Of a stretch of 64,000 nucleotides of DNA, positions 8,537-30,052 are shown one piece after another. The position numbers and the translations under genes were made by a program. Source of the stretch: Chryseobacterium edaphi (GTDB lineage Bacteria; Bacteroidota; Bacteroidia; Flavobacteriales; Weeksellaceae); assembly GCF_025628985.1 (NCBI RefSeq), contig NZ_JAOTEM010000002.1, forward strand, positions 434,001-498,000, read 5' to 3'. The notes beneath the pieces were generated by a model. That model was not told where the DNA came from, made no database searches, and worked only from the letters and a program-made list of their open reading frames with translations. Positions within the stretch are counted from its first letter, which is position 1, and each line of letters opens with the position of its first letter.

Positions 8537-8539
8537 TTG

Positions 8540-8614
8540 TGGGCCCTGAGGGATTCGAACCCCCGACCCTCTGGGTGTAAACCAGATGCTCTGAACCAAC
8601 TGAGCTAAGAGCCC
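8540..8614 (-). tRNA. tRNA-Val(TAC), copy 2 in transcription order
   Basis: The minus strand folds as a 75-nt cloverleaf: acceptor GGGCTCT/AGGGCCC, D-arm GCTC/GAGC, anticodon stem TCTGG/CCAGA with loop TTTACAC (anticodon TAC), T-arm GGGGG TTCGAAT CCCTC, discriminator A. CCA is not encoded. It is identical to the copy at 8648-8722. Confidence 0.96.
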
Positions 8615-8647
8615 TGAATTTTTTTGAAAGGTTTCAGTAAACCTTTG

Positions 8648-8722
8648 TGGGCCCTGAGGGATTCGAACCCCCGACCCTCTGGGTGTAAACCAGATGCTCT
8701 GAACCAACTGAGCTAAGAGCCC
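8648..8722 (-). tRNA. tRNA-Val(TAC), copy 1 in transcription order
   Basis: Same 75-nt sequence and fold as the copy at 8540-8614, separated from it by 33 bp. Both are probably processed from one transcript, which may also include folC upstream. CCA is not encoded, so it must be added by tRNA nucleotidyltransferase. Confidence 0.96.
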
Positions 8723-25440: not shown

Positions 25441-26511
25441 TTATTTTAAAGTATTTACGTTATTTAAATCTTCAAATGCTCTTACCAATCTTTTAGAGAA
25501 CGTTTCTTCGCCTTTTCTGATCCAAACTCTTGGGTCATAGAATTTTTTGTTCGGCTTATCGTCTCCGTCAGGATTACCAATTTGAGTTTTCAGATATTCT
25601 ACATTATCTACCATGTAATCTCTGATTCCCTCTGTATAAGCGAACTGAAGATCGGTATCAATATTCATCTTAATCACCCCGTAATCAATCGCTTCTCTGA
25701 TTTCTTCTAAAGTAGAACCTGAACCACCGTGGAATACGAAATTAATCGGCTTCTCAGCAGTTCCGAATTTCTCCTGAACGAATTTCTGAGAATTGTCTAA
25801 GATTTTCGGAGTCAAAACTACATTTCCTGATTTGTAAACACCGTGTACATTTCCGAAAGCTGCTGCAATCGTGAAGTTATCAGAAATTGCTTTCAGTTTT
25901 TCGTAAGTGTAAGCTACGTCTTCAGGCTGCGTATATAATTTTGAATTGTCGATATCAGAATTGTCTACGCCATCTTCTTCACCTCCTGTTACACCGATTT
26001 CAACTTCCAAAGTCATCTGCATTTTTGCCATTCTTTCGAAATATTCAGCAGAGATCTCAAGGTTTTCTTCCAAAGATTCTTCAGAAAGATCAAGCATGTG
26101 AGAAGAGTAAAGCGATTTTCCAGTCTGCTTGAAGAATTCTTCGTTAGCTTCCATCAAACCGTCGATCCAAGGCAATAATTTCTTTGCAGCGTGATCGGTA
26201 TGTAAAATTACTGTTGCTCCGTAAGCTTCAGCTAAAGTGTGAATATGTTTTGCTCCAGCGACACCACCTAAAATAGCTGATTTCTGAGCGTCATTGCTCA
26301 ATCCTTTTCCAGCGTTGAAAGATGCTCCACCGTTAGAAAACTGAATGATAACAGGTGAGTTTAATTTTGCTGCAGTTTCCATTACTGCGTTCACGTTGCT
26401 CGAACCGATTACGTTCACTGCAGGCAATGCAAATTTGTTTTCTTTAGCATACTGAAAAATATCTGTAACTAACTGACCTGTGGCAACTCCTGCCGGAAAA
26501 ATTCTGCTCAT
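25441..26511 (-). CDS. fbaA: Class II fructose-bisphosphate aldolase
   Basis: Zinc-dependent aldolase that interconverts fructose-1,6-bisphosphate with glyceraldehyde-3-phosphate and dihydroxyacetone phosphate. The 356-aa protein has VILHTDHAAKKLLPWIDG with the metal His and catalytic Asp, the ligand EVEIGVTGGEEDGVD, and NFVFHGGSGSTLEEIREAIDYGV, which binds zinc and phosphate. Length matches the E. coli FbaA type. ATG 26511 gives MSRIFPAGVATGQLV. Neighbours nadK upstream and accD downstream suggest a constitutive primary-metabolism cluster. Confidence 0.96.
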   Translation of the reverse strand: MSRIFPAGVATGQLVTDIFQYAKENKFALPAVNVIGSSNVNAVMETAAKLNSPVIIQFSNGGASFNAGKGLSNDAQKSAILGGVAGAKHIHTLAEAYGATVILHTDHAAKKLLPWIDGLMEANEEFFKQTGKSLYSSHMLDLSEESLEENLEISAEYFERMAKMQMTLEVEIGVTGGEEDGVDNSDIDNSKLYTQPEDVAYTYEKLKAISDNFTIAAAFGNVHGVYKSGNVVLTPKILDNSQKFVQEKFGTAEKPINFVFHGGSGSTLEEIREAIDYGVIKMNIDTDLQFAYTEGIRDYMVDNVEYLKTQIGNPDGDDKPNKKFYDPRVWIRKGEETFSKRLVRAFEDLNNVNTLK

Positions 26512-26581: not shown

Positions 26582-27448
26582 TTAATTTCTTTTATCCCGT
26601 CCCCAAAGTAGCTTCTGGCGGATGGTTTCATAGAAACTTAAATTATTCGGCTGTACCAGTAACAGCTGGAAACTCGCCTTTCTGATCACAATTTCCTTAT
26701 CGGTTTCAATATGAATTAATCTTGAATCTAAAGAAAGAGAATATTGTGGAACACGGCTTTCAACTTTAAATTTAATTTCAACTTTATCATTGACAACCAA
26801 AGGTCTTACATTCAAGTTATGCGGAGCAATTGGAGTAATGACAAAGTTTTCGTTGTTCGGAGAAATAATCGGTCCGCCGCAACTTAAAGAATAAGCGGTA
26901 GAACCAGTCGGCGTAGAAACAATAACTCCGTCGCCCCAGAAAACATTAAGAAATTCGTTATTGATATAAGAATCTACCGTGACCATTGATGTGGTTTCTT
27001 TTCTGGAAATCGTCACATCATTTAAAGCATACGGAAAAAATTCGTCAGATTTTGGCGAAACTACTTCGATTACTGATCTTCGGCTGGTTTTCACATCACC
27101 TTTTAAAATTGAATCCAGTTCTTTGAAGGCCTCTTCTTTGGTAAAACTTGCCAAAAATCCAAGTCTTCCGGTGTTTACACCCACAACAGGAATTTCGAGA
27201 TCTTCGATGAAAGTTAATGAATTTACAATTGTTCCGTCGCCACCAAATGTGAAGAACAGATCAACTTTTTTGTCGATGAGATCCTGTTTGTTGCCAAAAG
27301 TCTCAAATATTTTTGAAAATTGAAGCGCTTCAGCCATTTCGTCAAACAAAACAGATTTTACGCCTCTGCTTTCCAGTTCAGAAATAAATTTGCTTAAATA
27401 TAAAAAAGTATCAAGATCTTTTTTCTGAGAATATATGGCTGCCTTCAT
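26582..27448 (-). CDS. nadK: NAD kinase
   Basis: Phosphorylates NAD to NADP with ATP. The 288-aa enzyme has the GGDGT motif in FFTFGGDGTIVNSLTFIED (about residues 67-85), then GVNTGRLGFLASF, VSTPTGSTAYSLSCGGPI with the glycine-rich binding loop, and ITPIAPHNLNVRPLV. Length is normal. It begins 1 bp after the stop of the CBS-domain gene, an arrangement that I recall as common in Flavobacteriia. Whether fba 70 bp downstream is in the same transcript is unclear. Confidence 0.97.
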   Translation of the reverse strand: MKAAIYSQKKDLDTFLYLSKFISELESRGVKSVLFDEMAEALQFSKIFETFGNKQDLIDKKVDLFFTFGGDGTIVNSLTFIEDLEIPVVGVNTGRLGFLASFTKEEAFKELDSILKGDVKTSRRSVIEVVSPKSDEFFPYALNDVTISRKETTSMVTVDSYINNEFLNVFWGDGVIVSTPTGSTAYSLSCGGPIISPNNENFVITPIAPHNLNVRPLVVNDKVEIKFKVESRVPQYSLSLDSRLIHIETDKEIVIRKASFQLLLVQPNNLSFYETIRQKLLWGRDKRN

Positions 27449-27449
27449 A

Positions 27450-28100
27450 TTATATTTCGATAAATTTTTGTAAAAAACCTAAACGGTCTTTGAAAAGATC
27501 TGTTTTCTCATCAGAATAATATTTTTCAACAATTCTGTAATCATAACGGTCGAAAGTAGCGTCGATGGAAGCTAAATTTTCGTTGCTGATCTTGATGGTG
27601 ATGTGAATAAATTCGTCTGACATGAAGCTGATAAATCCGCCGTAGAACTTAGAATTGTTGCTCTCAACGATGTTGGCAATTTCTGTCATAGAATATTTTC
27701 TTGCCGGAGTTTCTATCGTTAAGGTAGCACCGGTTTCCGAAAACAGAGGGTATTTTGAAAAGGTCTGGAAAACATCATCACAGCAGATGTAGCCCAGATA
27801 TTTTTCGTTTTTATTGATCACAGGAATCACGTTGGCATTGAATGTATAAAAAAGACGGATGCTGTCCATGATATTATTATCCTCCAAAATGGCGAAGCGC
27901 TCGATCTGATGTTCGAGGTTCTTCAAAGTTCCTTCTTCTTCATAAAGAAAGTCTTTGGCGATGGCTCCGTAAAAGTGGTGTGATTTTTTGATGAAAATAT
28001 GCGTATATCCAAATGCTTCTAGGGTTTCCCTAGCCGATTCGATGGAGTCAGTCAGATGAAAACACGGAAAATCTTTTGAGATATAGTCCTTGATAAACAT
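27450..28100 (-). CDS. CBS-domain protein upstream of nadK
   Basis: A 216-aa cytoplasmic protein with two CBS motifs (about residues 5-60 and 65-125, the second with ILEDNNIMDSIRLFYTFNANVIPVINKNEKYLGYI). CBS pairs usually bind adenosine nucleotides and regulate a partner. The C-terminal third (ETPARKYSMTEIANIVESNNSKFYG to ISNENLASIDATFDRYDYRIV) has an ACT-like order, suggesting ligand binding as well. Because it is translated 1 bp before nadK, it could sense nucleotide state for NADP synthesis; this link is inference. Confidence 0.83.
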   Translation of the reverse strand: MFIKDYISKDFPCFHLTDSIESARETLEAFGYTHIFIKKSHHFYGAIAKDFLYEEEGTLKNLEHQIERFAILEDNNIMDSIRLFYTFNANVIPVINKNEKYLGYICCDDVFQTFSKYPLFSETGATLTIETPARKYSMTEIANIVESNNSKFYGGFISFMSDEFIHITIKISNENLASIDATFDRYDYRIVEKYYSDEKTDLFKDRLGFLQKFIEI

Positions 28101-28184
28101 TGTGCTAATTTATAAAATTAAAAACGAAACCTTCCTGCTTTATTGCAGTTTTTTTTCATAAAAATAAAAAAAGTGAAATAAAAA

Positions 28185-28215
28185 TTTGCCCGTAAAGAAA
28201 TTTGAAGTATCTTTG
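28185..28215 (+). promoter_or_regulatory. Textbook Bacteroidetes promoter in the 28101-28440 gap
   Basis: TTTG (28185-28188) and TATCTTTG (28208-28215) are separated by 19 bp, which is the consensus architecture TTTG-N19-TAnnTTTG. It points to the plus strand, where no coding gene follows; both flanking genes are on the minus strand. Confidence 0.75.
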
Positions 28216-28221
28216 TCGCCT

Positions 28222-28286
28222 TTCATTTTTACTTTTTATTAGATTTATTTCAAACTGCACTGTCTTTTGACAGACGCAGTTTTTTT
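28222..28286 (+). ncRNA. Candidate small RNA, about 65 nt
   Basis: The transcript would start near 28222 and end in the T run at about 28286. It has an unstructured U/A-rich 5' half and a 3' intrinsic terminator. No reading frame of useful length and no known RNA family was recognised. The rest of the 28101-28440 gap holds only AT-rich sequence. Confidence 0.5.
28252..28286 (+). terminator. Intrinsic terminator of the candidate small RNA
   Basis: AAACTGC (28252-28258) pairs with GCAGTTT (28276-28282), with an inner stem CTGTC/GACAG (28260-28264 with 28269-28273) around TTTT, followed by a run of T. Confidence 0.75.
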
Positions 28287-28440
28287 ATTTTAGGGCATAT
28301 TCTGATTTTCGAAAACTGAATTTTGCTGTTTTTATTTAAACGCAAAGTCCGCTAAGATTTTTTTGAACTTCCCCATGCTTTTAAGATATACGAAGGCGTT
28401 CTACTCAGCGAAGACTTCAAAAAATTAATTTAAACAATTA

Positions 28441-28977
28441 TTATTTAATTCCTAAAGCTTTCGCAAATTCCCACATCACGATTCCGCCGCAAACGCTTAC
28501 ATTTAAAGAATGCTTTGTTCCCAGTTGCGGAATTTCAATAAAAGAATCGATATTCTGAAGCGCTTCATCGCTGATTCCTTCCACTTCATTACCTAAAATC
28601 ATCGCGTATTTTTTTGTTTTGTCAATGGTAAAGTCAGTAATCATCATGCTGTTGGTTGTCTGCTCAATTCCCACAACTTCAAATCCCTGACTTTTTAAGT
28701 CATTAATCGTGACATTAATATCTGCTTCATGCGACCAATCCACGCTTTCAGTTGCTCCTAACGCTGCTTTGTGAATTTCACGGTGTGGCGGTTGCGGCGT
28801 GATTCCACACAAAATAATTTGCTGAACCAAAAACGCATCCGCCGTTCTGAATGTCGCACCCACATTGTGCATACTTCTTATATTATCTAAAACAACTACT
28901 AATGGAATTTTCTCAACCTTTTTAAAAGTTTCTACATCAATTCTGTTGAGTTCTTCTAGTTTTAATTTATTTACCAA
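28441..28977 (-). CDS. SpoU/TrmH family RNA 2'-O-methyltransferase
   Basis: A 178-aa SPOUT-fold methyltransferase. The three motifs are present: LDNIRSMHNVGATFRTADAF (motif 1), AMILGNEVEGISDEAL (motif 2) and IEIPQLGTKHSLNVSVCGGIVMWE (motif 3). These bind S-adenosylmethionine through the trefoil knot. There is no N-terminal substrate domain, so the target could be tRNA or rRNA. The start is TTG (28975-28977) because no ATG lies upstream of motif 1 in frame. Confidence 0.9.
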   Translation of the reverse strand: MVNKLKLEELNRIDVETFKKVEKIPLVVVLDNIRSMHNVGATFRTADAFLVQQIILCGITPQPPHREIHKAALGATESVDWSHEADINVTINDLKSQGFEVVGIEQTTNSMMITDFTIDKTKKYAMILGNEVEGISDEALQNIDSFIEIPQLGTKHSLNVSVCGGIVMWEFAKALGIK

Positions 28978-29170
28978 AATAATTTTATTTCTTATTACAA
29001 TTTACGAATTCTTCTTTACGAATGGATTCTTAACTTTATTATTTCTCACCTTAATTTTCTTAACCAAAATAAACTTGTTTATTCCTTATCACTCTGAGGA
29101 AATTAATTTTGAACAACAATTCACTTAAAAGCTTAATTTTCTTACTGTTTAAAATCCAAACAAAATCTAA

Positions 29171-30052
29171 TTAATTTTTCGCACCCATTATCTGATGCAC
29201 ATTTTTCTCAATATTCTGAGCAATCGTCTCCATCGGAATATCGTTTTCATCATTATTAAATGGATCTTCGATTTCTTCAGCGATCAATTCCAGACTCATC
29301 AGTACGTAATATACGAAAACCGTCAGCGGGATCATAAATAATCCGAGATTGATAACGTAAGCAATCGGAAGTGCTACAACATACAGAATAATGAATTTCT
29401 TTATAAATGAGGAGTATGAATAAGGAATCGGGGTGTTTTTGATTCTCTCACAACCACCGCAGACATCCAGAAAACCTGTTAACTGTGTATCGAGGTACAA
29501 CATTTCAACGTCAGAAATTTTTCCTTCTTTTTTTAACTGATATAATTTGTGTGTCAAAAGAACAACCAAATCTGTTGGTCCGTGATGCTTCAGAGATTTT
29601 TCAATTTCTGAATAATCTTCATCCAAAGCCAATCTTGTAGATTCCTGCGAAAGATGTTTGGCTAAGAAATGCGGGAAATATTTTAGATATCTTGCAATCT
29701 GATCAGCTGATTTTCTGTCGTCTTTAAGAATAATATTGATTTTTACTGCGAAATTTCTCGTATCATTCACAAGTTTTCCCCAAAGTTTTCTTCCTTCCCA
29801 CCATCTGTCGTAAGCTGTATTCGTTCTGAAAACCAAAAGCAAAGACAAAACAAAACCTAATAGAGAATGTATCAATCCGACATTGCTGATTTTTGATCTA
29901 GCGGTTAAATGCAAGTATTCAATTTCCAAATATTGAATTCCGTAAGAATAAATCGCCATCAAAACCATCGTAGGAAAGAGGATTTTCATGGTGTCGCTTT
30001 TGTGTAAGCTGACCAATATCTTCAGGAAATTTTTCGTGTTGTAAACTCTCAT
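29171..30052 (-). CDS. Bestrophin family ion channel protein
   Basis: A 293-aa membrane protein of the bestrophin/UPF0187 family. It starts MRVYNTKNFLKIL and has transmembrane segments at about 21-43, 55-77 and two more near 210-255. The family motifs FRTNTAYDRWWEGRKLWGKLVN and the IPYSYSSFIKKFIILYVVALP segment are clear. Bacterial homologues form pentameric channels, often cation-permeable. It is divergent from the JmjC-like gene and has a TATCTTTG promoter box 18 bp upstream. Confidence 0.93.
   Translation of the reverse strand: MRVYNTKNFLKILVSLHKSDTMKILFPTMVLMAIYSYGIQYLEIEYLHLTARSKISNVGLIHSLLGFVLSLLLVFRTNTAYDRWWEGRKLWGKLVNDTRNFAVKINIILKDDRKSADQIARYLKYFPHFLAKHLSQESTRLALDEDYSEIEKSLKHHGPTDLVVLLTHKLYQLKKEGKISDVEMLYLDTQLTGFLDVCGGCERIKNTPIPYSYSSFIKKFIILYVVALPIAYVINLGLFMIPLTVFVYYVLMSLELIAEEIEDPFNNDENDIPMETIAQNIEKNVHQIMGAKN

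Follow-up and report, generated by a model that had tools for sequence, protein, structure and literature searches.

A conserved candidate small RNA gene of the Weeksellaceae with predicted antisense sites at the starts of purine and PRPP synthesis genes

Layout of the locus

The stretch of Chryseobacterium edaphi DNA analyzed here (64,000 nucleotides in all; hereafter the window) carries, at 28185-28286 on the plus strand, a TTTG-N19-TATCTTTG promoter, a frame-free stretch and a hairpin with a T run; this arrangement was proposed by a sequence-only reading and is confirmed in the sequence (Table 1). The same reading placed both neighbors on the opposite strand, and the ORF calls indeed assign both to the minus strand. 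The elements follow one another in the order TTTG, 19 bases, TATCTTTG, GCCTTTCATTTTTACTTTTTATTAGATTTATTTC, the hairpin AAACTGCACTGTC-TTTT-GACAGACGCAGTTT, and the T run.

Table 1. Positions of the features of the candidate RNA locus, its neighbors and one weak candidate target within the window.
Feature	Position	Strand	Basis or remark
-33 promoter element TTTG (Bacteroidetes type)	28185-28188	+	Sequence; kept upstream in relatives
-7 promoter element TATCTTTG	28208-28215	+	Sequence; TAnnTTTG kept in relatives
Predicted small RNA, ~69 nt	28218-28286	+	5' end from promoter spacing, +/- ~3 nt; no transcript data
Invariant 30-nt core, predicted unpaired and predicted to pair with mRNA	28220-28249	+	Identical in 43/43 aligned copies
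Intrinsic terminator hairpin, stem AAACTGC/GCAGTTT plus inner stem CTGTC/GACAG	28252-28282	+	Fold, pair counts
Terminator T run, its first bases also paired in the stem	28280-28286	+	Sequence; kept in relatives
Neighbor ORF, CBS according to the sequence-only reading	27450-28100	-	No NCBIfam match
Neighbor, SpoU-type RNA methyltransferase	28441-28977	-	NCBIfam matches, all below curated cut-offs
fba, class II fructose-bisphosphate aldolase (weak candidate target)	25441-26511	-	Score rank tied 8-12 of 1418; RNAduplex rank 87 of 744

The exact promoter string occurs once in the window (0.01 expected from shuffles) and the looser TTTG-N18-20-TAnnTTTG five times (2.65 expected); as chance nearly accounts for the matches to the looser consensus, the promoter string by itself is weak evidence. 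A generic promoter scan (13 sigma-70-like sites vs. 6.4 expected) was given no weight. The 74-nt strand from 28216 folds with -14.7 kcal/mol (z -4.8; 0 of 200 shuffles equally stable), forming the terminator hairpin only and leaving the 5' part open. A simple terminator scanner reported none in 27400-29200 (1.0 expected), perhaps because of the bulges in the stem. There is no ATG on the plus strand between promoter and hairpin, and on the minus strand a GTG-start ORF of 34 codons spans the element.

Just 5' of the promoter lies a second small hairpin, CTGC-TTTATT-GCAG-T8 (28136-28158, plus strand), present in only some of 49 aligned relatives. In the gap separating the RNA gene from the SpoU gene, the stretch 28323-28414 has matches elsewhere in genus genomes (G136 and G102) and is perhaps a dispersed repeat; genus matches to the locus mostly end before it. 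Elsewhere in the window, two tandem tRNA-Val genes with the same anticodon (TAC) and equal Rfam score occupy 8539-8722 on the minus strand.

Conservation and inferred RNA character of the element

Lack of conservation of promoter and hairpin in close relatives had been named as an outcome that would refute the small-RNA proposal; the comparison was made and did not refute it, and we judge the element real because it is conserved. It was matched in all 148 genomes of the genus. Across 50 sequences (the window and 49 relatives, the latter chosen among those whose match stops just past the terminator), GCCTTTCATTTTTACTTTTTATTAGATTTATTTCAAACTGCA is identical throughout, with variation in the promoter spacer, the loop, and the right stem arm; in most relatives listed, the match breaks off shortly after the terminator, 28292 and 28296 being the typical end points in the window. 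Of the 197 genomes of the family, 159 have a match at E <= 0.01; 20 of these matches are weak (E 2.9e-6 or worse), which by our own count leaves 139 genomes, from 14 of 33 genera, with a match at E <= 1e-9. Neither in 296 genomes of the order nor in 296 sampled across the phylum does a match at the latter threshold fall outside this family, and the best match outside the family is 29 nt long (E 1.4e-6). The three weak extra-family matches inspected, among those listed, were rejected as copies (L121, L122, and L123): all fall within ORFs or at ORF starts, and no promoter-core-hairpin unit was seen.

In 43 aligned copies from 14 genera, the 30 consecutive columns of the core are invariant and hardly any other column is; the last 26 nt of the core are exact in 71 of 71 loci. 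The aligned copies were drawn from 67 rows picked by the exact 26-nt core plus a nearby TTTG, a selection by which no locus was lost (71 loci, 71 matches, none without TTTG, four duplicates); the 71 loci derive from BLAST matches and do not cover all 139 carriers. The exact 30-nt core is present in at least 119 stretches of named genomes (one genome per species). Carriers among the matches listed belong to Chryseobacterium, Kaistella, Epilithonimonas, Riemerella, Cloacibacterium, Bergeyella, Soonwooa, and an Elizabethkingia, together with a few MAGs or strains labeled only Weeksellaceae, Flavobacteriaceae, Flavobacteriales, or Bacteroidetes. TAnnTTTG directly precedes the core in all 117 listed copies that have at least 45 nt upstream; a TTG lies 17-21 nt 5' of TAnnTTTG in 115 of the 117 listed copies, and 116 of 117 have a run of at least four T downstream. 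In other genera (40 loci), the element has a CBS homologue next to it in 31 cases and a SpoU homologue in 16; the neighbors otherwise differ between loci, and thus the RNA gene is not tied to one neighbor. Extra matches in 5 of the 40 loci are fragments of 16-26 nt, and no second full copy was seen among the loci inspected (not every genome was searched).

One genome of carrier genus g26 (G258) has a weak match only. When 30 Weeksellaceae genomes lacking a strong BLAST match were searched with a covariance model, with only 150 candidates scored per genome, 3 of the 30 gave matches at E <= 0.1 (five matches, in G156, G179, and G182). None was accepted as a copy: L515 and L517 each consist of a hairpin immediately following a CDS, inspection of L516 and L518 by eye revealed no promoter-core-hairpin unit, and L519 is a hairpin with a T run from which the core is absent. 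Near position 1500 of L515 (G156), TTATTAGATCAATTTCAA and the hairpin after it are similar to part of the RNA (model E 0.003); this stretch lies directly behind a CDS and faces a folP-like gene (identified by eye), and no promoter was seen.

In the terminator stem, changes on both sides are seen at 7 of 11 pairs (24 cells; shuffles gave 7.7, and none of 500 matched the real count); such counts are inflated by the relatedness of the genomes, as the tool itself warns. Only 67.7% of cells are paired in the inner helix. Four Riemerella copies and the g6 copy have a wholly different stem, with the hairpin still formed. By these comparisons the terminator stem appears to vary with pairing largely kept. 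The invariant 5' part, the kept promoter, and the compensating stem lend strong comparative support to the proposal of a small-RNA gene.

As far as sequence can tell, the element would be an RNA, not a protein or a DNA site. The contrary reading, of a conserved DNA element, a leader of the downstream gene, or a small peptide gene, could appeal to the minus-strand GTG-start ORF, but we consider it scarcely credible: the plus strand lacks an ATG, the 30 invariant core positions leave no free codon position in any frame, and promoter and T run are retained. Both a small protein gene, given the missing ATG and the absence of codon-like variation in the core, and coding on either strand were rejected. 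A leader is opposed by the downstream ORF, which differs among genera and lies on the minus strand in 39 of 40 other-genus loci (the sole exception being L130); as both window neighbors are also on the minus strand, a cis-acting purine riboswitch or attenuator was rejected likewise. With Rfam 15 at gathering score, the whole window yielded two tRNAs only and no family at the element, where the one sub-threshold match (E <= 1) is a 19-bit Plasmodium RNase P on the other strand.

Predicted target sites

The reverse complement of the core, AATAAATCTAATAAAAAGTAAAAATGAAAG, resembles the start of a Bacteroidetes gene, and the start regions it resembles include those of prs, rpe, rpiB, purK, purE, purH, and purC. 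Similarity searching gave 42 matches in the window's own genome at E <= 10, of which 25 loci, the element itself included, were inspected, together with a selection of about 20 matches in other genomes. Antisense sites over or just before start codons were found at rpe (6 genomes), purK (9 genomes), prs, rpiB, purL, purC, purH, and folD, and also at several genes without a purine link; own-genome matches L002, L005, L199, and L204 were discarded, as they lie within genes and not at starts. NCBIfam models identify rpe, purK, purE, purH, prs, rpiB, purC, gcvT, and fba above curated cut-offs; purL is named only in part, and folD falls below the cut-offs of the 25 models listed, all of which name FolD activities.

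Genes of the window's own genome were ranked in 80 stretches totaling 1.58 Mb (1.64 Mb with the window, ~40% of the genome), using a simple longest-ORF caller without annotation. RNA positions 1-47 were compared with the region -50 to +21 of the ATG in 1418 ORFs of at least 100 codons by an antisense score of our own (A-U 1, G-C 1.6, G-U -0.2, mismatch -1.6, gap -3), with RNAduplex as a check. The highest ranks were taken by prs (1), genes for an NAD-dependent epimerase-like protein (2), a nucleoside-deaminase-like protein (3), and a BshB/PIG-L-like deacetylase (4), rpiB (5), purK (6), and purE (7), followed by fba (Table 1), gcvT (20), and folD (37). The proteins at ranks 2-4 reach no NCBIfam cut-off, and three genes among the first seven cannot be linked clearly to purines. 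Within the region scored, purH (373) and purN (525) rank low; a better purH match sits ~126-160 nt upstream. For prs, rpiB, purK, purE, purH, purN, and folD, the mean log10 rank is 1.31, compared with 2.45 (sd 0.22) for 100 dinucleotide-shuffled RNAs, none of which did as well; four of these seven genes enter the top 20 with the real RNA vs. at most two of seven with shuffles. This list was compiled after matches had been seen (prs, rpiB, and purK before the ranking, purE not). By RNAduplex, in a first sample of 744 genes, the deaminase ranks 1, purE 4, rpiB 19, purK 41, and folD 78; the lower places of rpiB and purK indicate that the own-genome ranking is partly dependent on our score, which penalizes G-U pairs. 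For a 22-nt piece of the core with up to three mismatches, 60 genus genomes gave 233 matches, or 173 after subtraction of one own copy each, vs. 120 for a reversed-pattern control, a modest excess.

Across genera, the comparison was limited to five gene families (purK, prs, purE, purH, and rpe), the orthologues of which were scored in 21 carriers and in nine relatives without a BLAST copy; for prs and purH, one non-carrier each was dropped for want of a usable start. The five genes were picked from matches in a Kaistella-type genome, the first own-genome sample, or this genus; the genus supplied 2 of the 21 genomes, and its rows are therefore not independent of how the genes were selected. Thresholds of 15.9 and 13.2 correspond to the 99th and 95th percentiles of the first own-genome sample (744 genes). 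Scores of at least 15.9 were reached by purK in 10 of 21 carriers vs. 0 of 9 non-carriers, by prs in 12 of 21 vs. 0 of 8, by purE in 4 of 21 vs. 0 of 9, by purH in 14 of 21 vs. 1 of 8, and by rpe in 7 of 21 vs. 0 of 9. Median scores in carriers and non-carriers were 15.4 and 11.4 for purK (p = 0.014), 16.6 and 10.0 for prs (p = 5e-5), 18.2 and 9.1 for purH (p = 2e-4), and 13.6 and 8.8 for rpe (p = 2e-4); the purE medians (12.4 and 10.4) did not differ significantly (p = 0.12). Neighboring genes in carriers had a median of 9.4, and only 4 of 197 reached 15.9, three of them being purK itself.

Shuffled RNAs gave a four-gene mean of 10.4 (sd 0.68) in carriers, vs. 15.6 for the real RNA (0 of 200); for single genes, the real score was reached by 0 of 200 shuffles for purK, prs, and purH, and by 1 of 200 for purE. 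In non-carriers the four-gene mean was 10.2 vs. 9.5 for shuffled RNAs, and was matched by 10 of 200. RNAduplex energies were in agreement: set against 240 background genes from which neighbors matching target genes had been removed, they gave p = 7e-7 for purK, 2e-13 for prs, 3e-4 for purE, 2e-10 for purH, and 2e-6 for rpe; purE energies did not differ significantly between carriers and non-carriers (p = 0.13). All these p-values overstate independence, since carriers and non-carriers are related by descent, and start regions are A-rich in general in these AT-rich genomes, for which shuffles and background correct only partly. With these reservations, the computed complementarity to prs, purK, purH, and rpe exceeds chance, that to purE is weaker, and in relatives without the RNA such complementarity is scarce. 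The suggestion that an A/U-rich 5' half pairs with target mRNAs thereby gains computational support, with purine, PRPP, and pentose-phosphate genes as the candidate targets.

The predicted target sites are not frozen strings. At purH, the sites begin between -70 and -14 and pair with differing lengths of the arm; the purH score rises to 27.8 in G290, and in G155 the purH pairing extends through RNA position 40. In the 72 sites scoring at least 13.2, pairing is densest at RNA nt ~7-29 and drops beyond 33, the invariant block being nt 3-32; 49 of the 72 cover the ATG, and 57 lie within -35 to +10. A fixed arm with drifting target sites is what would be expected if the RNA must fit many targets. 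Some sites include the non-simple part AAUCUAAUAA. Sites at individual genes are missing from several carriers; both g5 genomes, for example, score 7.8 at purK. One genome in which the RNA was found neither by BLAST nor by the covariance model (G170, of g24; L429 and L488) scores 17.8 at purH and 15.2 at prs; recent loss of the RNA, an assembly gap, or chance could account for these sites.

Complementary stretches of other kinds were also noted. In L234 (~1500-1540; G214, inferred to belong to the Cloacibacterium group), ~40 nt directly behind a CDS are nearly complementary to the RNA and part of its terminator arm, possibly as a decoy for the small RNA. In L214 (G058), near 1501-1522, a site with one mismatch in 24 lies over a seven-codon ATG frame, and no longer gene was called there.

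Proposed mechanism, alternatives and known systems

A trans-acting base-pairing small RNA typically has its own transcription unit, is encoded apart from its targets, and exposes a conserved single-stranded stretch that can pair with several mRNAs, as a rule at the ribosome binding site; it is produced as a discrete RNA that alters the expression of its targets, and many such RNAs, though not all, depend on Hfq or another chaperone. On sequence evidence alone, the element satisfies the first three of these: it has a promoter, an intrinsic terminator, and no coding frame, its predicted targets lie elsewhere in the genome, and such a stretch is present. We infer, with a probability of about 0.8, a free-standing trans-acting antisense small RNA that represses purine and PRPP synthesis at translation initiation; the conservation, promoter, and terminator of the predicted gene are supported by computation, and transcription, pairing in the cell, repression, and a purine signal are inferred. 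Transcription would start near 28218 from a housekeeping-type promoter and stop behind the hairpin, giving an RNA of ~69 nt with an unstructured, U-rich 5' arm that holds the invariant 30-nt core, followed by the terminator hairpin. The arm is predicted to form ~15-30 base pairs in trans, most of them A-U, with the A-rich surroundings of the start codons of prs, rpe, rpiB, purK, purE, purH, and purC (ribose-phosphate supply and de novo purine synthesis) and, less surely, of folD and gcvT. Pairing most likely would block ribosome loading and so lower pathway output as a group: RpiB and Rpe, which carry out isomerization of ribose-5-phosphate and epimerization, Prs, which makes PRPP, and several purine steps would be reduced jointly, with one-carbon supply (FolD and GcvT) perhaps lowered too. 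Purine status as the signal, and the direction of the effect, are inferences.

The same RNA and targets could be combined with a different outcome, in which pairing alters mRNA stability or opens a structured leader and so activates translation. Pairing this long could recruit an RNase or unfold a leader; 23 of the 72 sites miss the ATG, and a few lie as far up as -70. Deletion of the small RNA Rfp18 in Flavobacterium psychrophilum lowered two metalloprotease mRNAs (PMC9723704), which indicates that an RNA of this group can support its targets. We nevertheless regard altered stability or activation as unlikely, since most sites cover the start codon or fall within -35 to +10 (counts above), the usual place of an initiation block. 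It is also conceivable that a real small RNA acts by another route, for instance by holding an RNA-binding protein on its U-rich arm, and that the purine complementarity is a by-product of A-rich starts. Several sites are simple A-rich strings (such as that of prs in the non-carrier G170), and the RNAduplex ranks of purK and rpiB are modest. This possibility appears more remote than that of altered stability or activation: shuffled RNAs fail in the cross-genome comparison for purK, prs, purH, purE, and the four-gene mean, as well as in the genome ranking, neighboring genes other than purK hardly score, some sites contain the non-simple part noted above, and sites are mostly absent from non-carriers.

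In GcvB of enterobacteria, one conserved single-stranded, U-containing stretch pairs with many mRNAs near ribosome binding sites, and the targets belong to one metabolic area, that of amino-acid genes. The Chryseobacterium RNA resembles GcvB in the predicted use of one single-stranded stretch for many mRNAs of one metabolic area, but differs in lacking an Rfam match, in its lineage, in its predicted purine targets, in an arm invariant over 30 nt, and in a predicted pairing that is mainly A-U. Bacteroides thetaiotaomicron belongs to another class of the phylum. Small RNA regulation of metabolism in Bacteroidetes is represented by that species (PMC7366714), whereas the core described here was found, in the 296 genomes sampled across the phylum, at E <= 1e-9 only in the window's own family. 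Rfp18, like the RNA proposed here, is a small RNA conserved across species, with several predicted mRNA targets that share one function; it comes from a related bacterial group (PMC9723704). It differs from the RNA proposed here in that the predicted pairing part lies within the third stem-loop, metalloproteases and an adhesin are the predicted targets, and two target mRNAs fall when it is lost; the same study describes 85 new RNAs in F. psychrophilum, and the word "purine" is absent from its main text (PMC9723704). In the open-licence literature, we found no description of this RNA, and none of purine synthesis being controlled by a small RNA in Chryseobacterium, Elizabethkingia, Riemerella, or Weeksellaceae.

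The element is thus probably an undescribed regulatory switch for purine synthesis. For a base-pairing RNA, 30 nt is a long stretch to remain invariant in 14 genera, which would be explained if the arm served a whole pathway. On a broader hypothesis, which we put forward at even odds, de novo purine and PRPP synthesis in this family would be governed mainly by one ultraconserved small RNA, acting by translation-level antisense in the role that a PurR repressor or a purine riboswitch has elsewhere, with the 30-nt arm frozen by the need to fit at least half a dozen start regions at once. The case illustrates how pairing could find start regions in A-rich leaders, and with the predicted target set, an orphan intergenic element becomes the basis of a testable claim about the balance of ribose phosphate, PRPP, and purines.
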